Shown piece after piece: positions 1 to 8,760 of a stretch of DNA of 34,370 nucleotides. The position numbers and the translations under genes are program-made. Source of the stretch: Oscillospiraceae bacterium (GTDB lineage: Bacteria > Bacillota > Clostridia > Oscillospirales > Acutalibacteraceae); the NCBI GenBank assembly GCA_015066515.1, contig SVOH01000021.1, positions 1 through 34,370 of the forward strand, in the 5' to 3' direction. The stretch's first letter is position 1. Each line of letters starts with the position of its first letter. The notes under the pieces were generated by a model. That model saw only the letters and a list, made by a program, of their open reading frames with translations, ran no database searches and was not told where the DNA came from.

Positions 1-768
1 GTTGGTGTTCAAACGGGGTTTGACGTTTATGAAAGCACAGACCTTGAAAACTGGAGCGAGGCAAAAAGTGTTTTTGAAATAACTGACGACTTTTGGGCTA
101 CTACTGATGCCTGGGCACCCGAGGTGAATTTTTATAAAGGTAAATTTTATATGTTTGCCTCTTTTAAGTCACCCAACACCTGCCGCGGTACACAAATACT
201 AGTAAGCAATACGCCTGACGGTAAATTTGTACCACTTACAAAAAATCCCATTACACCAAACGATTGGGAATGTCTTGATGGCACTTTTTATATTGACAAA
301 AACGGTAATCCGCACATTATATTTTGTCACGAATGGGTACAGATTGAAAACGGAACCGTGTGCGAAATGCAGTTATCCCCCGATCTTACTTGCGCAGTAA
401 GCAAACCAAGAATTCTTTGGAGTGCAAAAGACTATAAAGACATTTGTATGGTTGGCAAAGATATTAAAGGATACGTTACCGATGGACCGTTTTTGTATCG
501 CAACCATAGTGATAAACTTTTGGCTATATGGTCATCATTTAACAAAAACGGATATACCGCTCTGGTATCGCAAAGTGATAACGGTGATATTAATGGTAAC
601 TGGAGTGTTTGCGAAACACCGCTTTCGGCAGTTGATGGCGGTCACGGTATGATATTTAAGGCATTTGACAGTAAAGATTATCTTATAATGCACAAGCCCA
701 ATACAGCCACTCTTGAACGACCGGTAATTACCGAACTTAAAGAAAATAACGGAAATATATTTATATAA
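1..768 (+). CDS. Glycoside hydrolase family 43-like protein, 3' part
   Basis: Reading frame 1 is open from the first base to the TAA at 766-768, so the true start lies upstream of the window. The visible 255 residues include a WAPEV motif, which in GH43 five-bladed propeller glycosidases precedes a catalytic-site blade, followed by repeated short blade-like strands and a late DGGHGM motif that fits the conserved His of the last blade. The family removes arabinose or xylose from plant polysaccharides. One oddity is that the segment aligned with the usual Glu-Gly-Pro (general acid) reads Thr-Asp-Gly-Pro-Phe, so the acid may be Asp or lie elsewhere. No signal peptide can be judged because the N-terminus is missing. 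Substrate is not predictable from this part. The family call is from motif pattern only. Confidence 0.75.
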   Translation, partial: VGVQTGFDVYESTDLENWSEAKSVFEITDDFWATTDAWAPEVNFYKGKFYMFASFKSPNTCRGTQILVSNTPDGKFVPLTKNPITPNDWECLDGTFYIDKNGNPHIIFCHEWVQIENGTVCEMQLSPDLTCAVSKPRILWSAKDYKDICMVGKDIKGYVTDGPFLYRNHSDKLLAIWSSFNKNGYTALVSQSDNGDINGNWSVCETPLSAVDGGHGMIFKAFDSKDYLIMHKPNTATLERPVITELKENNGNIFI

Positions 769-774
769 ACAAAA

Positions 775-803
775 AAGAGGATTGACGTTAAGTTAATCTT
801 CTT
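775..803. terminator. Bidirectional terminator between convergent genes
   Basis: A 12-bp stem (775-786 with 792-803) with two G-T pairs and a 5-base loop is flanked by A and T runs. It serves the GH43 gene on the plus strand and overlaps the stop codon of the radical SAM gene on the minus strand. Confidence 0.75.
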
Positions 804-1665
804 TTAAATATTTATTTAAATAATTAAGCACCATCTTTTTATCTGCCGACCATAGCGGTGCTATTAGGTCACGCTTGGCACCGTCGCCGGTTATTCGATG
901 AACAACTATTTCGGGCGGTAAAACCGATATACATTTTTTTAGAATTTCTGCATAATTTTCGAGCGTTAAGCATTCGAATTTCCCACCTAAATAATCACGT
1001 TCTAAATCGGTGTTTTTTAGTACGTGTAACAGGTGAAACTTAACCCCGTTAGTCCCTGCCGATATTGCGTCAAGCGTAGTTTTAACAGCATCATTAGCCG
1101 TTTCATTGGGCAGACCAATTATTATGTGGGTTACAACGTCTATTCCCGCCGATTTTAAACGTTTTACAGCATCAAAATAAACCTGTGTTTTATAACCTCG
1201 TCTTATATATTCTACACTTTTTTCGTTGGTGGTTTGTAGCCCCAATTCAATGCTTACGGGTTTTACAAGGTTTATTTCTTTTAAAAGTGATATAACATCA
1301 TCGCCCAGACAATCGGGGCGGGTGCCAATTGACAAACCAACTATATAATCGGGTTTTATAGCCTCGTAATATAGTTTTTTTAGTTTTTCAACAGGCGCGT
1401 ATGTACCCGTAAAAGACTGAAAATATGCAATATATTTACCGCCTTTATTTTTATTTTCTACACGTAGCTTTGCATTTTCAAGCTGTGTAGTTATATCGTT
1501 GCCTTTTTCGGCAAATTCACCACTACCAAACTCTGAACAAAAAATGCAACCACCTGTACCTAAAGTTCCGTCACGGTTAGGACAGGTAAATCCACCATCC
1601 AGTGACAGTTTATATACTTTACAGCCAAACCTTTGCTTATAGTAGTCATTGACACTTTTATACAT
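793..1665 (-). CDS. Radical SAM protein, TIGR01212 family (YtqA/YhcC type)
   Basis: A 290-aa protein, full length for the family. The [4Fe-4S]/SAM cysteines are C28, C40 and C43, in the long-spaced arrangement C-x11-C-x2-C (CPNRDG...GGCIFC) that marks this group rather than the canonical CxxxCxxC. A GLSIGTRPDC segment and SIELGLQTTNE follow, as in Elp3-like radical SAM barrels. Bacillus subtilis YtqA has been assigned to wobble-uridine tRNA modification (mnm5s2U pathway, MnmL), so a tRNA role is plausible but is inference here; no partner gene (mnmM/ytqB) lies nearby. ATG at 1663-1665 is preceded by AGGTGA at good spacing. A terminator hairpin stands between it and the upstream small gene, so it may depend on read-through or on a promoter I cannot see. 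Confidence 0.88.
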   Translation of the reverse strand: MYKSVNDYYKQRFGCKVYKLSLDGGFTCPNRDGTLGTGGCIFCSEFGSGEFAEKGNDITTQLENAKLRVENKNKGGKYIAYFQSFTGTYAPVEKLKKLYYEAIKPDYIVGLSIGTRPDCLGDDVISLLKEINLVKPVSIELGLQTTNEKSVEYIRRGYKTQVYFDAVKRLKSAGIDVVTHIIIGLPNETANDAVKTTLDAISAGTNGVKFHLLHVLKNTDLERDYLGGKFECLTLENYAEILKKCISVLPPEIVVHRITGDGAKRDLIAPLWSADKKMVLNYLNKYLKED

Positions 1666-1679
1666 AATATCACCTATAA

Positions 1680-1710
1680 AAAAATCATCCGCAAAAAACG
1701 GATGATTTTT
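1680..1710 (-). terminator. Terminator of the small membrane protein gene
   Basis: A perfect 12-bp stem (1680-1691 with 1699-1710) with a 7-base A-rich loop, T runs on both sides. It lies 5 bases past the stop of the 1715-1951 gene and just before the radical SAM ribosome binding site. Confidence 0.8.
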
Positions 1711-1714
1711 AAGT

Positions 1715-1951
1715 TTACTTTAACACCTTGCAAAAATCAAGAATTGCAATAACAATTGCTGCTAAAAGATAAATTTCAACCAAAGCACCAACAATGCCGG
1801 TTAACAAACCTATAACAGGAATTTTACCAATCAAGCTAAGCACAAAACCTATTACCGCGCCTACAACTATGTAAATTAATATTTTGATAATAAGCGTTGC
1901 AACATCCTTTACTCCAAACGAAAATGGAAATAGTTTTTTTAATGTATCCAT
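1715..1951 (-). CDS. Small two-helix membrane protein, function unknown
   Basis: 78 residues. Two hydrophobic segments (about residues 17-42 and 47-72) are joined by a short turn with IGKIPVIG, preceded by a short basic N-terminus (MDTLKKLF). It has its own promoter, a strong ribosome binding site (AAAGGGG) and a terminator, so it is a complete single-gene transcription unit and very likely real. The glycine-rich helices resemble small membrane proteins of the Clostridia, but I recognise no family and assign no function. Confidence 0.7.
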   Translation of the reverse strand: MDTLKKLFPFSFGVKDVATLIIKILIYIVVGAVIGFVLSLIGKIPVIGLLTGIVGALVEIYLLAAIVIAILDFCKVLK

Positions 1952-1980
1952 AAGAATACCCCTTTCGAATTGATGATTTT

Positions 1981-2009
1981 ATTTTACTTTTTAACGATTA
2001 TTTTGTCAA
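1981..2009 (-). promoter_or_regulatory. Sigma-A-type promoter for the 1715-1951 gene
   Basis: On the minus strand TTGACA (2004-2009) and TAAAAT (1981-1986) are separated by 17 bases. Confidence 0.7.
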
Positions 2010-2027
2010 TAATTTTATAATAAAATA

Positions 2028-2056
2028 TTTACATCTTTGTTTAAATATGGTATTCT
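2028..2056 (+). promoter_or_regulatory. Sigma-A-type promoter for the deacetylase gene
   Basis: TTTACA (2028-2033), a 17-base spacer and TATTCT (2051-2056). The predicted start of transcription falls next to the ribosome binding site, giving a very short leader. The bases AAAATATTTACA recur in the promoters at 4146 and 6920. Confidence 0.5.
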
Positions 2057-2078
2057 TTTTACAAAGGCGGTGTTCATT

Positions 2079-2783
2079 ATGAATTTTAAAGAAAGCGGAA
2101 AATTAAAGGCGATTACATTTAGCTATGACGATGCCGTAACGCAAGATATTGAGCTTGTAGAGCTTTTTAACAAATATAATTTAAAGTCTACTTTTAATGT
2201 TAATTCCGAATTACTTAATACAAATAATATGCTTATACGCGAGAATAAACGCGTAGCGCATTATAAGCTTCATAAAAGCGATGTTAAGGGTGTTTATGAA
2301 GGTCACGAGGTTGCCGTTCATACACTTACACATCCCCATTTGCCGCCCCTTGAAGAAGTCGAGGTTATACGCCAAGTAGAACAGGACCGATTAAACCTAT
2401 CCGAAATTGTTGGCTACGAGGTTATAGGTATGGCGTACCCCGGCGGCGGAGTTAATAACGACGACCGTGTTGCCGAAATTATAAAGAATAATACAGGTGT
2501 AAAATACAGCCGTACCATTACCTGTAACGACAGCTTTGATTTACAAGATAATTTGTATCGTTTTAACCCTACAGTATATCATCTGCATTTTGACAAGATG
2601 ATGGAAATGGGCGAGAAATTTATAAATATGTCATCCGATAAGCCACAAATTTTTTATATTTGGGGTCACTCCTACGAATTTGATTACCAAAGCGATTATC
2701 TTGCAAAATTTGAAGAATTTTTAAAACTGATATCTAATAAAGACGATATTTTCTATGGAACAAACAAAGAAGTATTGCTGTAA
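2079..2783 (+). CDS. Polysaccharide deacetylase (carbohydrate esterase 4-like)
   Basis: 234 residues from the ATG at 2079, chosen over an upstream in-frame ATG at 2037 because AAAGGCGG sits 8 bases ahead of it and the longer start would overlap the promoter. NodB-fold motifs are visible: TFSYDD (catalytic base and metal Asp, D17-D18), HTLTHPHL (metal His, H81 and H85) and AYPGG near residue 121. The family removes N- or O-acetyl groups from sugars such as peptidoglycan, chitin or xylan using a divalent metal. There is no signal peptide or membrane segment, so a cytoplasmic substrate is likely. It is a single-gene unit with its own promoter and terminator. Substrate unknown. Confidence 0.82.
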   Translation: MNFKESGKLKAITFSYDDAVTQDIELVELFNKYNLKSTFNVNSELLNTNNMLIRENKRVAHYKLHKSDVKGVYEGHEVAVHTLTHPHLPPLEEVEVIRQVEQDRLNLSEIVGYEVIGMAYPGGGVNNDDRVAEIIKNNTGVKYSRTITCNDSFDLQDNLYRFNPTVYHLHFDKMMEMGEKFINMSSDKPQIFYIWGHSYEFDYQSDYLAKFEEFLKLISNKDDIFYGTNKEVLL

Positions 2784-2805
2784 AAATATTTATTAAATTT
2801 TATAC

Positions 2806-2838
2806 AAAAAGTCTTGACCAAAACGGTCAAGACTTTTT
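2806..2838. terminator. Bidirectional terminator
   Basis: A perfect 14-bp stem (2806-2819 with 2825-2838) with loop AAAAC, A run on one side and T run on the other, between the deacetylase and the convergent thioesterase. Confidence 0.9.
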
Positions 2839-2842
2839 TGTT

Positions 2843-3565
2843 TTATTTATATTCAAGCCAACATGCAAACATAATATCGCTGTTGTCGTTAACTCCCTTT
2901 GCAACGACTACGTTTTCTTCGCTTGCGTGATATATATTTAGTGTAGTGCCCTCTAACACTTCTTTTCGGTAATCTATTTGAAAAGTATCTAATACTTGTG
3001 TTTCGCTAGGTGCTATTGCATCCATAACGTAATTGGCATATTTAGTATTGTTTACGTGATTGTTTGTATCCAATTCGCTAAAACCCGCATTTACAATACG
3101 CGGTGTGCCCAATGCTTCAAAATCGTGGATTTTACCAAGCTTTTCTTCAAACATCAGCTCATTATGAAAACCGTCGGTAAATGAGTACAAATTCATATCT
3201 GACACCAAACGTCGCTTTTCATTGTGCATTACAACCCATTCCGAACTACCTATAATCAGTCGATCACCGTACTCGTTTTCAATGCAGTATTCCCTGCGAT
3301 AGCTAAGTCTATTTGGCGCTAACGGCCATGTTTTTATAATAACTTTTTGGTAACTATATGGGTCCGCAATAATTTTAAATCTAATTCTTGTAAGCACCCA
3401 CAAATAAGAGCGGTCAAGCATTGCCTTAAACCCTACGCCAAGCTGCTCGGCGTGTTGACCTGCGGCATCTTGAAAAAGCTCTAGTACTGCAGACGGCTTA
3501 ATACGATTGTATTTATCAAAATCATTCGCCCTTAGTGTATATTCTTTTTGCCATAAACGATCCAT
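2843..3565 (-). CDS. Acyl-ACP thioesterase (FatA/PF01643 type)
   Basis: 240 residues, the usual length for bacterial FatA-like enzymes. It has two hotdog halves: the N-terminal half contains ELFQDAAGQHAEQLGVG, and the C-terminal half contains LDTNNHVNNTKYANYVMDA with the Asn/His catalytic region. It hydrolyses acyl-ACP to free fatty acid and ACP, ending fatty acid elongation. The start at 3565 has GAGGTATATAAAAA upstream. It begins 15 bases after the MarR-type gene and shares its transcript, which suggests that the regulator controls lipid or acyl metabolism and possibly its own operon. Cytoplasmic, no signal peptide. Chain-length preference cannot be told. Confidence 0.88.
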   Translation of the reverse strand: MDRLWQKEYTLRANDFDKYNRIKPSAVLELFQDAAGQHAEQLGVGFKAMLDRSYLWVLTRIRFKIIADPYSYQKVIIKTWPLAPNRLSYRREYCIENEYGDRLIIGSSEWVVMHNEKRRLVSDMNLYSFTDGFHNELMFEEKLGKIHDFEALGTPRIVNAGFSELDTNNHVNNTKYANYVMDAIAPSETQVLDTFQIDYRKEVLEGTTLNIYHASEENVVVAKGVNDNSDIMFACWLEYK

Positions 3566-3580
3566 TTTTTATATACCTCA

Positions 3581-4027
3581 TTATTTCCCACTGTTTTTCG
3601 AAACGTTTTCAAGACTTTCGCTTATAACCGAAAGACTACGGTAAAAGGCCACCCTTTCATCCTCGGTAAGACAACTGCGTACTTGGTCAAGCACTCGGTT
3701 TATCTTGTCAGCAATTTTTTTGCCAACCTCTATTCCCTTATCAGTAAGCATAAGTGGACTTTTATATCTTTTGGTGCATTTTGCTTCACAAGTAAGATAA
3801 CCGTTTGTCTCAAGAAAATCTAACGCGCGAGATATTGTTGCCTTGTCCTCCTCGCAACGTTCACACAAGGTTGCCGCTATAACGCCTTTTTCTATATACA
3901 AGTAATAAAGACAAGAAATATGAACACTACGAAGTCCATATTCCATCATTTCTTGATTTTTGATTTTACGAATATTACGACTTATCCTGTTAATAAGAAT
4001 TGTAAAAGTTTCAAATCTCTCTTTCAC
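3581..4027 (-). CDS. MarR-family transcriptional regulator
   Basis: 148 residues with the MarR winged-helix layout: an N-terminal dimerisation helix, a helix-turn-helix around VIAATLCERCEEDKATISRA, and a wing in YLTCEAKCTKRYKSP followed by LTDKGIEVGKKI. The start codon is GTG (4025-4027), with GTGGGGG a few bases upstream; no better ATG exists in frame. It is the first gene of a two-gene unit with the acyl-ACP thioesterase. A perfect 19-bp inverted repeat overlapping its -10 box suggests autoregulation. A ligand related to fatty acids is plausible by analogy with FabT-type MarR proteins, but that is inference. Confidence 0.88.
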   Translation of the reverse strand: MKERFETFTILINRISRNIRKIKNQEMMEYGLRSVHISCLYYLYIEKGVIAATLCERCEEDKATISRALDFLETNGYLTCEAKCTKRYKSPLMLTDKGIEVGKKIADKINRVLDQVRSCLTEDERVAFYRSLSVISESLENVSKNSGK

Positions 4028-4051
4028 TTATGAACCCCCACTCAATTCAAC

Positions 4052-4070
4052 TTATACTTCACAAGTATAA
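4052..4070. promoter_or_regulatory. Candidate MarR operator
   Basis: A perfect inverted repeat, TTATACTT-n3-AAGTATAA, typical in size for a MarR dimer site. It touches the -10 box of the regulator's own promoter, so binding there would block transcription of the MarR-thioesterase unit. A second dyad, TTGTTGA-n4-TCAACAA, overlaps the -35 region. Confidence 0.55.
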
Positions 4071-4098
4071 AAATAGCACAAGCTTGTTGAAATGTCAA
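4070..4098 (-). promoter_or_regulatory. Promoter of the MarR-thioesterase unit
   Basis: On the minus strand TTGACA (4093-4098), a 17-base spacer and TATTTT (4070-4075). Confidence 0.65.
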
Positions 4099-4145
4099 CA
4101 AACTTATGCTTGTACTTCACTGTGCAATTAGCGCTTCAAAAAATA

Positions 4146-4174
4146 TTTACATTAAATCAGCTGTGTGATATAAT
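4146..4174 (+). promoter_or_regulatory. Cassette 1 promoter
   Basis: TTTACA (4146-4151), a 17-base spacer and TATAAT (4169-4174). The stretch AAAATATTTACATTAAAT is shared with the cassette 3 promoter. Confidence 0.75.
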
Positions 4175-4195
4175 GCAATAAAGTGAGGTATCAGT

Positions 4196-4681
4196 ATGAC
4201 CACGATTCAAAAAGATGAATATATATTTGAAGTTGATGTTGTGAAAACAATAAAATATTATAAAACACATTCGCTTTGCGAGTGCGAAAGCTGCGAGAAT
4301 TTCTATGCTCAAATCAAAGGCAAGTTCCCCAAACTCGAGTCTTTTCTTGCTGACTTTGGCGTAGATATAACGAAGCCCGACGAATGTATGAGTGTTGAAT
4401 TAGACAACACTATTCAATATATTGGAATTGACTATACTGTGTGTGGTAAAGTTGTTACTATGGGACAGTATGAAATTGATATTCAGGATAATTTGTTTTT
4501 TAATCTTGTCATTACCAATGGATTTGCATCACCAAATGAGCAGACAGGAGAATATTTTACCATTTCAATAATTAATGTTTTTGAGTTGCCGTGGGTATTG
4601 GATAATCCCTTTCCTACTGCCTCGCAATTCAAACCAACCAGCAAAATAAAAGGTTTTTTCAAAAAAATTTTTAAGGCTTGA
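4196..4681 (+). CDS. Cassette 1 cargo: unknown 161-aa protein
   Basis: I do not recognise this protein. It begins with an ATG preceded by GTGAGG and follows a good promoter by about 20 bases. Visible features are a Cys-rich stretch early on (CECESCENF, about residues 28-36), alternating beta-type sequence through the middle, no membrane segment, and a basic amphipathic C-terminus (KIKGFFKKIFKA) that could touch a membrane. The last codons AAG-GCT-TGA lie inside the stem of the terminator hairpin shared by all cassettes, so the natural C-terminus may have been replaced or trimmed when the cassette formed. The terminator, a palindromic repeat and a detached spoVAC tail follow directly. It may be accessory cargo; function unknown. 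Confidence 0.65.
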   Translation: MTTIQKDEYIFEVDVVKTIKYYKTHSLCECESCENFYAQIKGKFPKLESFLADFGVDITKPDECMSVELDNTIQYIGIDYTVCGKVVTMGQYEIDIQDNLFFNLVITNGFASPNEQTGEYFTISIINVFELPWVLDNPFPTASQFKPTSKIKGFFKKIFKA

Positions 4682-4704
4682 CCTAATCGGTCAAGCCTTT
4701 TTCT
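4673..4704 (+). terminator. Cassette 1 terminator
   Basis: An 11-bp stem (4673-4683 with 4689-4699) followed by TTTTT. The core GGCTTGACC/GGTCAAGCC is the same as in the cassette 2 terminator and the resident spoVAC terminator. Confidence 0.85.
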
Positions 4705-4816
4705 AAAGCCTCCCTCTGACGAGGGAGGTGGCAAAACAAAGTTTTGACGGAGGGAGAGATTCTCTCCCCCAGCCACGGCTTTCGCCGTGTCAGCCCCCTC
4801 GTCAGAGGGGGCCTTT
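4705..4816. repeat. Palindromic intergenic repeat (MITE-like), family 1
   Basis: The left arm AAAGCCTCCCTCTGACGAGG is answered by GCCCCCTCGTCAGAGGGGGC at the right end. Inner hairpins include CACGGCTTTCGCCGTG and GGGAGAGATTCTCTCCC. It has no coding content. A related but longer element sits at 25709-25854. Here it lies between the terminator and the detached spoVAC tail, and its insertion has removed the tail's stop codon. Confidence 0.75.
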
Positions 4817-4821
4817 TCTAT

Positions 4822-4936
4822 AAAACAATGTCGTTACCCAATAAATAACTCCATACACCACACTCGCCACCGTGCCATACACAATCACCGGTCCTGCTAT
4901 GGTGAAAATTTTAGCGCCAACGCCTAAAATATATCC
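4822..4936 (-). pseudogene. Detached spoVAC 3' end, copy A
   Basis: 115 bp aligned without gaps to 8291-8405 of the intact spoVAC, with 98 identical bases by my count. On the minus strand it encodes GYILGVGAKIFTIAGPVIVY and onward to WVTTLF, with only three conservative replacements (M to V, I to V, F to V) against the resident gene. The stop codon position reads TAT because the neighbouring repeat abuts it. The codon just upstream of GYILG is TAA and there is no ribosome binding site or start, so it cannot be a gene. The low number of amino acid changes shows it was a selected spoVAC end until recently. Confidence 0.85.
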
Positions 4937-4979
4937 TTATGCTTGTGTCAAGTTGGGACCCATTAGTTTTTGAAAAATA

Positions 4980-5008
4980 TTGATTTTTCTTCGATAAAGT
5001 GTTATACT
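4980..5008 (+). promoter_or_regulatory. Cassette 2 promoter
   Basis: TTGATT (4980-4985), a 17-base spacer and TATACT (5003-5008). The predicted transcription start, about 7 bases on, coincides with the first base of the structured RNA at 5015. Confidence 0.7.
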
Positions 5009-5014
5009 AACTAT

Positions 5015-5206
5015 GCCAAACCAACTGAATAATGCAGAAAGTATAATTTTTCATAGGAATATTATACCCCTTTGTACCATAGACTGAATTTGATAAAAAT
5101 GCAAATTCTGATTCTGTGGTGCAATAAGTTTGCTTTCTGCGGAGTTGGTTTGGCGACTATCGGAGTTTGCGTTTTTTGTGCGGCTACTTCGGTAGCCGCA
5201 CTTTTT
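5015..5206 (+). ncRNA. Candidate structured leader RNA with terminator (riboswitch-like or sRNA)
   Basis: Long-range pairings can be drawn by eye: P1 5015-5026 with 5143-5154 (12 perfect pairs), P2 5034-5041 with 5133-5140 (8 pairs), a hairpin 5042-5047 with 5061-5066, P4 5074-5083 with 5113-5122 (10 pairs, two G-U) and P5 5086-5092 with 5102-5108. This makes a closed multi-branched fold whose 5' end is the predicted transcript start. After 23 single-stranded bases a UUCG-capped terminator follows, then the ribosome binding site of the PH/SHOCT gene. I recognise no known riboswitch class. It may control read-through into the cargo genes or be a free small RNA. I see no clear antiterminator pairing. 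No open reading frame in it has a convincing start. Confidence 0.6.
5178..5206 (+). terminator. UUCG-capped terminator upstream of the cargo operon
   Basis: A perfect 10-bp stem GTGCGGCTAC/GTAGCCGCAC closed by a TTCG tetraloop and followed by five T. It lies between the promoter and the gene it should serve, the usual position of an attenuator. Confidence 0.85.
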
Positions 5207-5225
5207 ATTTTGGAGGTAAAAGAAA

Positions 5226-5984
5226 ATGACTCAAGAAAAAACAAATGTCAAGCAACAAGAAGAAACGAAATTTGAAAGAAAAGTGAAAGAGAGTTTTATT
5301 GAGCCCGATGAAAACCTTATTGCTATTTTAGGGGCAAATACTGCAAAAACATTCTTTTCAACAGGCGTTCTTGGTAATGGGTTTGCTATTTTATCGGACA
5401 AGCGAATGTATTTTAAAGGTCGCTGCTATGTCCGAGCAGGAAAGGGTTTCTTTAAGAAGATGGAAGAGCGCGTTGTCGATTTGAACGACATCACAGGAAC
5501 AGGTTTTGTACACAATAAAAATATGATAACCACCATCTTATACTACATAACTTTTGCCATTTCTTGTACTACGTTCTTATCTTTGCCTTTCTGGATTGTC
5601 TATTTTTCAACTGGTAAGAGTTGGGCAAAAAAGGTCGCGTGGGGAATACAATGTATATTTTGGCCTATGCCACTATTTTATTTTATTAATAAAGCTTTTA
5701 ACTATAGCTTATTTGAAGTATCCTACGCAGGTGGCGGAATTGCGTTTGATTTATCTTGGATAACAAAGGCTGATTCTGACAGTTTTCAAAAATCACTTCA
5801 AAGCGCAAAAAGTGAATACAAGAAGAAAGCACAGCAAAATCAATTCACTGATTTTACACAGCCTGCACAAAAAAATGAAAATAGTATCACTGAGCAATTA
5901 AAAGAATACAAAGCGCTTCTTGATGACGGTGTTATTACCCTAGAAGAATTTGAAGCCAAAAAGAAACAACTATTAGCAAAATAA
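5226..5984 (+). CDS. Cassette 2 cargo: PH-like domain and SHOCT membrane protein
   Basis: 252 residues. Residues about 25-105 (from ESFIEPDENLIAILGAN through VDLNDITGTG) look like a bacterial PH-like domain, including the ILSDKRMYFKG strand typical of that fold. Two hydrophobic segments follow at about 99-120 and 134-156, then a short strand region, a Gln/Lys-rich linker, and a C-terminal SHOCT motif (EQLKEYKALLDDGVITLEEFEAKK, quoted in part) at about 220-250. SHOCT helices are short oligomerisation modules. ATG at 5226 has TGGAGG 9 bases upstream. The next gene starts 10 bases after its stop, so the two form an operon. Proteins of this build are common but of unknown role; a membrane-associated sensor or scaffold is a guess. 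Confidence 0.75.
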   Translation: MTQEKTNVKQQEETKFERKVKESFIEPDENLIAILGANTAKTFFSTGVLGNGFAILSDKRMYFKGRCYVRAGKGFFKKMEERVVDLNDITGTGFVHNKNMITTILYYITFAISCTTFLSLPFWIVYFSTGKSWAKKVAWGIQCIFWPMPLFYFINKAFNYSLFEVSYAGGGIAFDLSWITKADSDSFQKSLQSAKSEYKKKAQQNQFTDFTQPAQKNENSITEQLKEYKALLDDGVITLEEFEAKKKQLLAK

Positions 5985-5994
5985 GGAGTTATAT

Positions 5995-6657
5995 ATGAAA
6001 TTAAAGTTAAACATTATAGGCTTTACTCTAGTGTTGGTATCGGTAATAATACTCAATATATTTCCGCTTCTAATGCCTTTAGGAACCATCATAATATTTA
6101 TTGGTGTAATTCTCTTTGCGGGGTTTTATAATGAAAGAAGTTTTATTGATTTTATAACTTTTGAAAATGGTAATTATATTATTTCGGTGCGTAAAAGACT
6201 GTATTATAATTTCTTCCCATTCACTATTATTTTTTCGATTTTCAGGTTTGATATTGATTTTATATACAAGGTTGAATATTATAAATTTATTACCCCAAAT
6301 CTTGAAATGTTAGAAAACAATATAGAACAAATCAAAGTAAATCGTGCTGAATATAAAAAAATCTTGCAAAACCAAAAACAGCAGTATTTGAACAATTCTG
6401 TACCAAAAGAGCTCGTTAATGAATGTTGTTCTCCTCAAAATAACAATATCAAGCTCGCAAAAACTCGCTATATTATTTGGCTTATATTAGCAATATTATG
6501 CCTAACAGGATTAACTGTTCCGTCTGATTGGCTATTGGCTATAGCATCCGTTGCTTTATTTGGACTATTAGCAGCATTTCGCTACACAGAATATAAGCAA
6601 TCGCAATTTAAAGACACAGTTTATAATAATTATTTCAAAAACTCTAAAAATCAATAA
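5995..6657 (+). CDS. Cassette 2 cargo: membrane protein, function unknown
   Basis: 220 residues in four parts: two N-terminal hydrophobic segments (about 6-23 and 26-45), a soluble middle with an aromatic-rich stretch (RLYYNFFPFTIIFSIFRFD) and a likely helical region around LENNIEQIKVNRAEYKKILQ, two further membrane segments (about 158-174 and 178-195), and a charged tail. AAGGAG precedes the ATG at 5995 by 7 bases, and the gene follows the PH/SHOCT gene closely, so the products probably act together at the membrane. No family recognised. Its end is followed within 20 bases by the cassette terminator. Confidence 0.65.
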   Translation: MKLKLNIIGFTLVLVSVIILNIFPLLMPLGTIIIFIGVILFAGFYNERSFIDFITFENGNYIISVRKRLYYNFFPFTIIFSIFRFDIDFIYKVEYYKFITPNLEMLENNIEQIKVNRAEYKKILQNQKQQYLNNSVPKELVNECCSPQNNNIKLAKTRYIIWLILAILCLTGLTVPSDWLLAIASVALFGLLAAFRYTEYKQSQFKDTVYNNYFKNSKNQ

Positions 6658-6671
6658 CATACACAAAAAAG

Positions 6672-6699
6672 AAGGCTTGACCGATTTGGTCAAGCCTTT
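6672..6699 (+). terminator. Cassette 2 terminator
   Basis: Stem AAGGCTTGACC/GGTCAAGCCTT (6672-6682 with 6688-6698), but only three T follow before GCTG, so termination may be weaker than in the other cassettes. Confidence 0.65.
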
Positions 6700-6707
6700 G
6701 CTGTATG

Positions 6708-6757
6708 TAGGGAACGGATTTATCCGTTCCGTTAGGAATGCATAAATGCATTCCCTA
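6708..6757. repeat. Double palindrome repeat, family 2
   Basis: Two adjoining hairpins, GGAACGGAT/ATCCGTTCC (6711-6730) and GGAATGCAT/ATGCATTCC (6735-6754), inside outer arms TAGGGAA/TTCCCTA. It occupies the same place in cassette 2 (between terminator and spoVAC tail) as the unrelated repeat does in cassette 1. Confidence 0.7.
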
Positions 6758-6762
6758 AAATT

Positions 6763-6877
6763 AAAACAATGTCGTTATCCAATAAACAACCCCATAAATC
6801 ACACTCGCAATTGTGCCGTACATAATTACAGGGCCTGCTATGGTAAATATTTTAGCACCCACACCTAAGATATATCC
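6763..6877 (-). pseudogene. Detached spoVAC 3' end, copy B
   Basis: 115 bp, gap-free against 8291-8405 with 103 identical bases by my count. It encodes the same 38-residue tail with four conservative changes and keeps the TAA stop (6761-6763). Just upstream in frame it reads Leu-Thr-Ala-Ala-Glu before GYILG and then meets stops or unrelated sequence, with no start signals. The first bases beyond GYILG resemble those beyond copy A (TGTCAA and GGAC at matching positions) but not the intact gene, so the two remnants share a junction. Confidence 0.85.
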
Positions 6878-6919
6878 CTCTGCTGCTGTCAATATAGGAC
6901 ACACCGCTTTGTAAAAATA

Positions 6920-6948
6920 TTTACATTAAATTGGCGATATGGTATAAT
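6920..6948 (+). promoter_or_regulatory. Cassette 3 promoter
   Basis: TTTACA (6920-6925), a 17-base spacer and TATAAT (6943-6948). The transcript would start near 6955, directly at a small hairpin GTTAAAC/GTTTAAC (6956-6962 with 6974-6980) in a 60-base leader. Confidence 0.75.
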
Positions 6949-7015
6949 ATTTTATGTTAAACAAAGAATCGAGGTTTAACTTTAAATTTGCATTTGTACC
7001 ACTAGGAGACATAAA

Positions 7016-8212
7016 ATGGAAATAGAGATTAGTGAATATGTTTCTTTTTACCAGAAATACAATCCGTTTGAACTATCAATGATCAATCCGACAGAATATA
7101 CTAAAATTCCATATGAAAAATTAAACGCAATTTTGTTTGGAAACAATCCAACAAAAATTCGTATAAAAGATACTTGGTATGATGTTCTGACATATTCTGA
7201 TGCGGTTCGTACAATTAGCAAAAGCGATAATGGCTATCATTTTTTGTATATTCAAATCAACTGGAAAACAAAAGAATACTATATTGGTAAGGTAAATCGT
7301 AAGCGTTGGAGCGAAATACGTAGATACCAAGGGTCTGGTATTAGATTTAAGCAAAAATATAAAAAACATCAAGAAGACTTCTGTAGATACTTATTCGCAT
7401 ATGCTAATACAAATGATGGGACTGAACATATAGAGAAAGTTATAGTTGATGAGGTGCTTTTAAATGATCCCAAATGTTTAAATCTTGTTTGTGGCGGTGG
7501 CGGAACAAGTGAACAAAGTGATAACGAAGAAAGAAAAGAACGGATACGCGCTCATATGAAATCTCACCCCGAACAATATGAAGCAATGATGCAAAAGGCA
7601 AAGGAGTTATACCATTCTGGACAAACTCAAGCTCTGAAAATGCGTGCTCAATCGATAAAAAATACAATGAGCGACGAAAAATATAGCAATATGTTTAGGG
7701 AACGCATAATGCAATGGAGAAACGAAAATCCAGAAGAATATGAAAAGGCTAGAGAAAATAATCGAATAGCAGCTCAGTCGGAAGAGTCAAGATTAAAGCG
7801 CAAGTTATCAAGGGAGAAATGGATTGCAGAGCACCCAGAGGAACACAAAATACAACAGCAACAATTGATTGCTGCACGGACAACTCCGGAAGCTATCGAG
7901 AAAAGAAAAGCCTCGCTAAAGCTTTGGCAAGAAACCCATCCCGAAGAAGCTAAAGAAAACGCACGCAGAAGAGCGGCTGCATCTGCTGCAAAGAACAGCA
8001 AACGAGTACACATGTGTGACCTTGAAACGGGTGAGATAATTACAACATTTGATAGTCAGGCTGCAGCTGCGCAATGGCTAGTTGATCAAGGAATTGCCAA
8101 AAATACAAATTGTAAAAGTTCCATTAGCCAAGTATGTTTACAGAAACCATGCAGCACTGGCTATGGGATAAGGAAAAAAGCGTACGGATTCGGGTGGAAG
8201 TTTGCAGACTAA
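7016..8212 (+). CDS. Cassette 3 cargo: GIY-YIG homing-endonuclease-like protein with NUMOD domains
   Basis: 398 residues. The GIY-YIG-like core spans about 74-165: FLY stands for the GIY strand (77-79), then YYIGK (88-92), Arg 95 and 97, RRYQGSG (102-108), a likely catalytic Glu in the EHIEKVIVDE helix (137-146), and the NLVCGGGGTS turn that ends such domains. A highly charged helical region with repeated His/Asn-Pro-Glu segments (about 170-325) resembles NUMOD3-type DNA-binding repeats. The C-terminus (about 330-398: MCDLETGEIITTF ... GYGIRKKAYGFGWKF) matches NUMOD1/IENR1. This layout is that of free-standing homing endonucleases. AGGAGA precedes the ATG. It is convergent with spoVAC and its end is 40 bases from the shared terminator. 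Whether it cuts spoVAC is untested. Confidence 0.82.
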   Translation: MEIEISEYVSFYQKYNPFELSMINPTEYTKIPYEKLNAILFGNNPTKIRIKDTWYDVLTYSDAVRTISKSDNGYHFLYIQINWKTKEYYIGKVNRKRWSEIRRYQGSGIRFKQKYKKHQEDFCRYLFAYANTNDGTEHIEKVIVDEVLLNDPKCLNLVCGGGGTSEQSDNEERKERIRAHMKSHPEQYEAMMQKAKELYHSGQTQALKMRAQSIKNTMSDEKYSNMFRERIMQWRNENPEEYEKARENNRIAAQSEESRLKRKLSREKWIAEHPEEHKIQQQQLIAARTTPEAIEKRKASLKLWQETHPEEAKENARRRAAASAAKNSKRVHMCDLETGEIITTFDSQAAAAQWLVDQGIAKNTNCKSSISQVCLQKPCSTGYGIRKKAYGFGWKFAD

Positions 8213-8251
8213 CTCACACAAATTGTTACTATTAATTAATAATCTTAATAG

Positions 8252-8288
8252 CGCAAAAGGCTTGACCCATCGGGTCAAGCCTTTTGCG
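8252..8288. terminator. Bidirectional terminator of spoVAC and cassette 3
   Basis: A perfect 17-bp stem (8252-8268 with 8272-8288) with a 3-base loop, AAAA/TTTT inside the stem, abutting the spoVAC stop codon. It holds the same core as the two cassette terminators. Confidence 0.85.
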
Positions 8289-8732
8289 TTAGAACAATGT
8301 CGTTACCCAATAAATAAACCCATAAATCACACTCGCCACTGTGCCGTACATAATTACAGGTCCTGCTATGGTAAATATTTTAGCGCCTACACCAAGTATA
8401 TATCCCTCATTTTTAAACTCTATCGCTGGGGAAACCACTGCATTTGCAAAGCCGGTAATCGGCACCAAAGTCCCAGCACCTGCGCGGCGAGCTATCTTGT
8501 CAAAAATACCAAAGCCCGTAAGCAGTGCCGCTAAGAATATAATTGACACAGGCACCGCCATTTTTACCACCTTTTCACTTAAATCTAAAACGGTATAAAG
8601 TTCGTTTAAAAGCTGTCCTATAACACAAATGGCACCGCCCACTATATACGCCCAAACAAAGTCTTTTAATTTGGGTGATGGTGGCGATGCCTTTTTTGTC
8701 ATCTCGTTATATTTTTTCTTGTCAGGCAACAT
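8289..8732 (-). CDS. spoVAC: Stage V sporulation protein AC
   Basis: 147 residues from the ATG at 8730-8732; the longer GTG start at 8741 lies inside the ribosome binding region (AAAGGGAAG). Strong family signatures are AYIVGGAICVIGQ, ALLTGFGIFDKIARRAGAGT, VPITGFANAVVSPAIEFKNEG and IAGPVIMYG. It has about four hydrophobic segments. SpoVAC is part of the spore inner-membrane SpoVA channel that moves Ca-dipicolinate into the forespore and out at germination; B. subtilis SpoVAC is mechanosensitive. It is the second gene of a two-gene unit. No spoVAD or spoVAE follows, unlike many operons. Its 3' end is the sequence repeated in the cassettes, and its C-terminus was probably brought in with the latest insertion. 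Confidence 0.93.
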   Translation of the reverse strand: MLPDKKKYNEMTKKASPPSPKLKDFVWAYIVGGAICVIGQLLNELYTVLDLSEKVVKMAVPVSIIFLAALLTGFGIFDKIARRAGAGTLVPITGFANAVVSPAIEFKNEGYILGVGAKIFTIAGPVIMYGTVASVIYGFIYWVTTLF

Positions 8733-8760
8733 ATAATCCACTTCCCTTTCGGGAATATTG

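Follow-up and report, generated by a model that had tools for sequence, protein, structure and literature searches.

How does a row of small, unrelated genes come to lie behind a sporulation gene, each of them joined to a copy of that gene's own 3′ end? The question is raised by contig SVOH01000021.1 of an Oscillospiraceae bacterium (assembly GCA_015066515.1), a stretch of 34,370 nucleotides that is called the window here and is an entire contig (C36) of a 2.02-Mb draft genome (41 contigs, 98% complete). The gene is spoVAC. An earlier reading of the letters alone, the original prediction, had described three cassettes in tandem at this place and had taken them for the result of repeated insertion at one point in the gene. 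That observation is confirmed and is larger than the window: the same anatomy is repeated, the joint is precise, the cargo is diverse, and both cargo and joint sequence are shared between genomes. The interpretation that came with it is partly supported.

The spoVAC array and its junction sequence

Read in the sense of spoVAC (minus strand), the window has the 5′ part of the gene, its 3′ tail, a terminator, cassette 3 with an open reading frame (ORF) of 398 amino acids (aa), a promoter and J, the short sequence by which a cassette is joined to the next tail. Then follow a tail, a terminator, cassette 2 with two ORFs and J, and after these a tail, a terminator, cassette 1 with a 161-aa ORF, and a promoter. 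Three repeat families mark this order: D1 (spoVAC tails; 4821-4976, 6762-6917 and 8290-8445, the last one within the intact gene), D2 (three related terminators; 4645-4700, 6644-6699 and 8229-8284) and D3 (two copies of the promoter block; 4139-4174 and 6913-6948). Three tandem units, two detached tails and the intact gene thus all stand where they had been placed, with a correction for the middle cassette, which holds two ORFs (5226-5984 and 5995-6657). The features are as follows.

8289..8741, minus strand: intact spoVAC, the docking gene (Pfam PF03862, E 4.6e-42; NCBIfam TIGR02838, 175.7 bits, cut-off 164)
8289..8408, minus strand: 3′ tail of intact spoVAC, from GA at 8407-8408 to the stop codon (repeat family D1)
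8255..8285, no strand: terminator hairpin of cassette 3, GGCTTGACC..GGTCAAGCC (D2 repeat and sequence)
7016..8212, plus strand: cassette 3 cargo, 398 aa, weakly homing-endonuclease-like
6913..6948, plus strand: promoter block of cassette 3 (TTTACA, 17 bp, TATAAT; D3 repeat, with a similar block at many relatives' junctions)
6881..6903, minus strand: J of cassette 3 (TGTGTCCTATATTGACAGCAGCA), then GA at 6879-6880 (exact match; detached-tail alignment)
6761..6880, minus strand: detached spoVAC tail 2 (D1 repeat)
6669..6698, no strand: terminator of cassette 2 (D2/I1 repeat)
5995..6657, plus strand: cassette 2 cargo, second ORF, 220 aa, no family over cut-off
5226..5984, plus strand: cassette 2 cargo, first ORF, 252 aa, with a C-terminal SHOCT domain (PF09851, E 1.7e-8)
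4940..4964, minus strand: J of cassette 2, variant GGGTCCCAACTTGACACAAGCA, with TA in place of GA at 4938-4939
4821..4939, minus strand: detached spoVAC tail 1 (D1 repeat)
4673..4702, no strand: terminator of cassette 1 (I1 repeat)
4196..4681, plus strand: cassette 1 cargo, 161 aa, unknown family (similar ORFs in other arrays, e.g. L080 and L207)
4139..4174, plus strand: promoter block of cassette 1 (TTTACA, 17 bp, TATAAT; D3 repeat)

The cargos of the three cassettes are mutually unrelated. No clear J closes the far side of cassette 1; a candidate stands at about 4101-4120, where the letters look J-like. J itself is about 23 nucleotides long (TGTGTCCTATATTGACAGCAGCA) and meets the spoVAC 3′ end at a GA dinucleotide. 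The detached tails had been said to begin together before the GYILG codons and to be followed by similar junction sequences. The shared breakpoint is the same, with homology beginning slightly further out, at the GA of the preceding Glu codon, and the similar sequences are real, being more exactly a conserved J joined to each detached tail.

The same genome carries a second spoVAC on contig C5 (75% identical protein), followed by two more cassettes and two detached tails with breakpoint and junction type identical to those of the window, and then by a gene that by eye resembles threonine dehydrogenase. Since this second array stands at a paralog, the arrangement in the window is not a matter of chance. 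Two adjacent tyrosine recombinase genes (L008:2-2710, contig C5:10001-12709) lie about 5 kb from this array, the first of them interrupted by an in-frame TAG.

Relatives carry such arrays as well. A SpoVAC search of the genus gave a match in 69 of 70 genomes, and 60 loci were retrieved. J-joined tails occur in 17 of the 70 genomes, 16 of them seen in retrieved loci (one truncated) and one, G053, through J; G035 has a detached tail without J, and 21 retrieved loci longer than 12 kb have only the intact tail. Contigs often break next to spoVAC, so that absence from the other genomes of the genus is uncertain. A model of junction plus tail matches the detached tails from position 1-5 and the intact tails only from about 16-24, which is a sharp boundary. 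Zero, one or different cassettes had been expected among relatives, and from zero to several were found; a recurrent capture point in spoVAC, as proposed, agrees with the identical breakpoint, the varied cargo and the fact that no integrase was found in the units.

With at most three mismatches, the J pattern is present in 14 of the 70 genus genomes (reversed control 0); with at most two, it is present in 20 of 300 family genomes, which belong to 16 of 135 genera, and the control gave 3 hits. This family scan has 28 sites, and 25 of them show a spoVAC tail beside J (17 genomes, 13 genera); in G177, G244 and G282 J is present with no spoVAC tail beside it. A scan of genome_contigs for exact J gave 101 stretches with 122 sites. 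A long spoVAC tail comes next at 100 of these sites; the other 22 have a deacetylase tail (5) or a truncated or other sequence (17). These 101 loci, picked by the J pattern itself, are metagenome-assembled genomes (MAGs) named mostly Oscillospiraceae or Clostridia and less often Clostridiales, Ruminococcus, Lachnospiraceae, Eubacteriaceae or Bacillota, with very many from ruminant guts; nearly all data used here are draft MAGs. In viral_contigs J was found in no place in two scans, with one chance-like hit in a third, and a search with J plus tail gave no match in plasmids and one partial match in one record in phages. On this near-absence a phage or plasmid vector was rejected.

Conservation of J was measured only on the genus tails found by spoVAC (34 gapped rows, 30 ungapped). 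In the gapped alignment its 23 positions are 71-100% conserved (median 91%) and the 50 positions upstream, which include the promoter block, 38-94% (median 74%); the ungapped figures (90% versus 50%) overstate this contrast. J occurs in a few discrete forms, with GTCCTATATTGACAGCAGCA in 14 of the 30 ungapped rows, GTCCTACTTGACCACAAGCA in 3, GTCCTAAGTTGACACAAGCA in 2 and each other listed form once. GA is next to J in 133 of 140 detached tails, and is present in 79 of 79 intact genes counted. J is also kept at several junctions that have no promoter or where the cargo runs in the opposite direction, and it is therefore not merely a part of the promoter. In five loci (L166, L169, L193, L206 and L262) J is preceded by one or two further copies of a unit like GGGTCCTAATAGAACACGAAGTAAT, which resemble tandem binding sites or footprints of earlier events. 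Two other identities for J were considered. As the palindromic core of a recombinase site it has merely an inverted repeat of GTC-N7-GAC, too weak to claim, and the end of a retro-element was rejected because the promoter is directed away from J, which would then lie outside the cargo transcript.

The junction at other genes and nearby recombinases

J is not confined to spoVAC, as a near-identical core is found at two other genes in other Clostridia. Four stretches found by the J pattern proved to hold another repeated gene tail: in G366, G367 and G368, GTCCTATATTGACAGAAGCAGA, which is like the spoVAC J core in 21 of 22 bases, runs at GA into the final ~20 codons and the terminator of a gene whose fragment matches polysaccharide deacetylases (best E 5.7e-7; no match in a Pfam search). 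In the family concerned, J was found in 6 of 48 genomes searched. A manganese-catalase gene (Pfam E 1.3e-23 to 9.4e-26), which we take to be CotJC-like, is the target in G407 and G408: its 3′ part follows J, which at the best sites agrees in 20 of 22 bases, with GA at the joint. Weaker sites (G367:C96 and G368:C4) have AA or CA instead of GA. By our own estimate about 0.5 chance matches to J are expected in 257 Gb. These loci were brought in by the J pattern itself, so that the match alone is weak evidence; J stands, however, at the joints of repeated detached gene ends in cassette-like arrays, which is hardly a product of chance. The gene-capture site proposed for spoVAC is supported, except that the same type of J end stands at two other genes as well. 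At the three main targets J runs in frame into the tail (LTAAEG, LTEADHEG and LTEADHG), with a possible TTG start.

It is at these other loci that J is found together with recombinases. At G407:C70 a row of three large serine recombinases plus a 148-aa ORF is closed by J. A longer row at G368:C54, with five recombinase genes (six ORFs, as the first gene is split) and a 160-aa ORF, is closed by a J variant; it lies at 3032-11484 of L353 (reverse strand), where the variant is joined to the tail of a further gene (DDGDRVWIWDEVEETLMKYKESFYIGEE). In G368:C32 three recombinases end in a degenerate J and a deacetylase tail, the joint being AA or CA and not GA. The J-linked recombinases that were scanned have Resolvase and Recombinase domains; among NCBIfam models they match CcrB or XisF best, far below the cut-offs, and one is 30% identical to an annotated TndX. 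According to one report (PMC4430133), every TndX target in B. subtilis has GA at its centre. Together with the recombinase clusters that end in J-like ends, this makes J look like an attachment half-site. A dedicated tyrosine integrase was rejected, since G015 (99% complete) and G010 (87%) hold only two and one integrase-family genes, those of G015 having frames of about 300 and 336 aa, the size of Xer proteins. A 582-aa large serine recombinase is encoded about 11 kb downstream of a cassette-free spoVAC in G069 (L067:812-2560).

What moves and how arrays may have arisen

The same cargo (up to 100% DNA identity) is found in different genomes and at different array positions, with similar J and different tails. 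This was followed in 46 pairs of units whose cargo is at least 80% identical. Mean tail identity was 0.71 for the two own tails, 0.70 for the two following tails, and 0.69 and 0.68 crosswise, so that the flanking tails are no more alike than those of unrelated units across loci (median 0.71). Tails at least 85% identical were found in 2 pairs (own tails), 4 pairs (following tails), and 1 and 1 (crosswise). Two pairs come from the same genome (the window with L281, L082 with L282) and two from near-identical contigs (L229 with L244, L205 with L258), in a same-genome check that covered the 12 pairs with cargo at least 98% identical; after removal of these four the numbers are 1, 0, 0 and 1 in 42 pairs. 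Near-identical cargo and similar J between different tails mean that tails are mostly not carried by the cassettes. Here the original prediction, in which each unit brings its own gene end, does not hold: the own tail is shared in 1 of 42 pairs and the following tail in none. Nor is its order of events, with cassette 3 the newest and cassette 1 the oldest, established, because cassettes are apparently exchangeable in place. The idea that the donor's own tail becomes the recipient's next tail likewise found no support in the same-cargo pairs.

In ten pairs inspected base by base, the right break lies within the promoter/J block or at the J|GA joint in all ten. Of the ten left breaks, 6 lie around the tail end (two of them also placeable in the terminator), 2 in the terminator and 1 in the middle of the tail; that of L230/L276 lies beyond the tail. 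Breaks inside the promoter/J block or the terminator indicate homologous exchange. L222 and L266 have near-identical spoVAC genes and different first cassettes. In the manganese-catalase arrays of G407 and G408, the common cassette is 99.4% identical and J is identical. The next tail, at 91% identity, is in line with the other tails of these arrays. In the own tail identity is about 87% close to GA and climbs to 96-100% towards the cargo, a gradient that fits homologous exchange between two conserved islands.

The tails themselves look like parts of genes that were in use. Apart from 20 of 237 tails that were out of register and were excluded from the codon-position, stop and identity comparisons, differences between neighbouring tails fall on codon positions 1, 2 and 3 in the numbers 319, 166 and 1325, and a stop is present in 7 of the 127 detached tails and in none of the 90 intact ones. 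With such a third-position bias and so few stops, the detached tails have diverged mostly while functional. Adjacent tails within an array are at least 93% identical in 7% of 85 pairs, compared with 0.0% of 23,315 pairs across loci.

An account of these arrays that we hold to be rather probable is that J sites at spoVAC were founded by a recombinase and that the cassettes, now without one, are shuffled mostly by homologous recombination. A cassette consists of a terminator, a cargo that is mostly a single gene read against the direction of spoVAC, in most cases a promoter directed outward, and J. It is flanked by copies of the ~120-bp 3′ end of spoVAC, the joint with J being at GA. J, we infer, would descend from the attachment half-site of elements with TndX/Ccr-like large serine recombinases, with the crossover at GA. 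The founding elements would first have entered the gene and left a functional gene end, and the spoVAC cassettes would be their recombinase-less descendants. Arrays may now grow, lose units and swap cargo chiefly through homologous recombination, with J and promoter as the conserved island on one side and tail end and terminator as that on the other; a recombinase might act in trans at times. The antiparallel orientation and the private terminator presumably keep the expression of spoVAC undisturbed.

Several observations weigh against this account. J is only moderately better conserved than the adjoining promoter block, and the GA is fixed by a Glu or Asp codon, which makes it weak evidence for a crossover. 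There are only three recombinase clusters, two of them in G368, where J at G368:C32 is degenerate and J of G368:C54 leads into the tail of a further gene. No such recombinase was found in the retrieved spoVAC-array loci; the serine recombinases in spoVAC-array genomes (14 stretches in 7 genomes) share no more than 35% identity with those linked to J, and G005, G010 and G034 (72-87% complete) gave no serine-recombinase hit. The recombinases are linked to spoVAC via the common J only. Finally, L230/L276 is the sole clear case of a tail carried with its cassette, with identity beginning at GA and the spoVAC 5′ parts being different, and four arrays have an intact tail that shares 94-97% identity with the first detached one between GA and about GGATAAC, which suggests duplication of the tail and is not predicted by simple exchange of cassettes.

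Homologous recombination might also suffice from beginning to end, J being a part of the shared promoter block that is swapped by RecA after DNA uptake, with a site-specific recombinase never involved. The left breaks at the tail end or in the terminator, the right breaks often in the promoter block, the left break within the tail of the manganese-catalase array (~100 bp from GA) and the rather high conservation of the promoter block itself would all be expected. We nevertheless regard this as unlikely, as J is kept at junctions without a promoter or with forward cargo, and stands at two other Clostridia genes where recombinase clusters end in it. The nearly identical tails of the four arrays, and the fact that for 21 of 70 detached tails the best match is the host's own intact tail, speak for a different process, in which a transposase or an enzyme like those of CRISPR adaptation inserts a tail-less cassette after GA and doubles the ~100-bp tail each time. 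The median identity of intact and first detached tail is just 0.79 (41 pairs), however, 26 of the 70 detached tails are matched better by at least 20 other genes than by their own, and the codon-position and stop counts show tails mostly diverged as functional genes and not as decaying copies. We know of no enzyme that produces duplications of such length in such a way, and this explanation appears improbable. Recent local duplication of tails and foreign origin of tails both seem to be present, with no single rule.

That the array is an ordinary integron cassette cluster without integrase (CALIN, cluster of attC sites lacking integrase) is a very remote prospect. It is true that, as in integrons, the cassettes are in tandem, mostly consist of single unrelated genes common to several species, and sometimes have no integrase nearby. 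The paired core motifs of attC are GTTRRRY and RYYYAAC, and this pair is absent on either strand of all 30 J-plus-tail sites (2.5% of shuffled sequences have it). Folding of two J sites on both strands gave nothing unusual (z-scores +1.20, +0.96, -0.47 and +0.02). Moreover, most cassettes here have their own promoter, run antiparallel to the docking gene and dock inside a coding gene. Integron or CALIN identity was rejected on the missing motifs and the ordinary folding. An artefact of assembly or binning deserves equally little credence. Draft MAGs make up nearly all of the data and many contigs break near arrays, but the same junctions recur across many MAGs that were assembled separately and come from several projects and animal hosts. 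They recur at several target genes too, one of which lies on a 2.04-Mb contig (G406:C1).

Known counterparts and the cargo pool

The logic of the arrays is nearest to that of staphylococcal cassette chromosome (SCC) composite islands and pseudo-SCC elements. SCC elements, pseudo-SCC elements and composite islands at rlmH are stacked at the 3′ end of a housekeeping gene whose end stays functional, and some have no recombinase. Stacking at a gene 3′ end is common to both, and the J-linked recombinases have their best matches, far below the cut-offs, in CcrB or XisF. Here, however, the cassettes are mostly 0.4-2 kb long and hold a single gene, ~120 bp of coding sequence are repeated, there are more cargos, no recombinase was found in spoVAC arrays, and the targets are spoVAC, manganese catalase and deacetylase. 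The rlmH 3′-end insertion with short direct repeats that marks SCC was not found, the repeat here being the 3′ part of the gene. CIMEs (cis-mobilizable elements) are recombinase-less units with att-like flanking repeats that accrete in tandem at gene 3′ ends, whereas the units here are much smaller, more numerous and more diverse, and mostly leave their tails behind. Tn5397/TndX and Tn4451-type elements are large transposons and, to our knowledge, have never been described as cassette arrays or gene-end repeats. The central GA of TndX targets (PMC4430133) and the J-linked recombinase that is 30% identical to TndX would connect them to J. Their recombinase is encoded by the element, whereas none was found in spoVAC cassettes.

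A broader reading, which we offer tentatively, is that of a counterpart to integrons derived from serine recombinases. J would make the 3′ ends of sporulation-related genes (spoVAC, the CotJC-like manganese catalase and the deacetylase) into open capture platforms for at least 100 mostly promoter-equipped single-gene cassettes in at least 13 genera of gut Clostridia, with the recombinase acting in trans or its part taken by homologous recombination. Gene capture is known in textbooks from integrons, and small single-gene cassettes travel here in a comparable way through a family of gut Clostridia, many of which come from ruminants. Most of these cassettes have their own promoter and terminator and are docked in a spore gene without visible breakage. 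A literature search, to which subscription papers were largely out of reach, found no published description of such arrays. As a short searchable tag, J makes the cassette pool countable, gives many unknown proteins a context and leads to the question of the enzyme; the J site might also serve as a natural landing site for the insertion of genes in these bacteria.

The pool was drawn from 188 loci with 233 J-tail sites (171 full and 62 truncated tails); L181, L201, L208 and L224 were left out of the spoVAC set, as their tail belongs to another gene. There are 164 units, of which 135 are non-identical (distinct by exact sequence only, so that a few near-duplicates remain), with a median length of 1092 bp and a range of 423-8386. 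In 116 of the 135 the longest ORF is antiparallel to spoVAC, and in 89 a -35-like ATGTAAA motif lies upstream of J. The 203 ORFs of at least 60 aa fall into 126 protein clusters, 89 of them singletons. Pfam and PADLOC searches of a small cargo sample gave a Fic protein, a Y1/RAYT-like transposase and mostly unknown proteins; from reading the sequences, others are presumably lipoproteins, YitT-like transporters, HAD hydrolases, radical-SAM enzymes and sugar-metabolism operons. No integrase was found in the spoVAC units. The transposase gene is at L262:2230-2709 (Pfam E 2.7e-6), and L238 has a similar ORF.

In the window, the SHOCT domain in the first ORF of cassette 2 is the only Pfam family over cut-off in cargo, and an Rfam search gave no match. 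The cargo of cassette 3 is an unusual solo passenger that resembles a phage homing endonuclease over about a third of its length (tblastn, 31.5% identity over 37% of the query, E 8e-8; PADLOC HEase, E 0.0044; nothing below E 0.1 in a Pfam search). Homing-endonuclease cargo as a general driver was rejected, there being no such match in the other cargo scanned (Pfam and PADLOC, small sample). One large spoVAC unit of 8.4 kb (L112:1080-9209, in G008) has seven ORFs, including a transporter-like protein and four similar proteins of ~450 aa that are radical-SAM/B12-like by eye.

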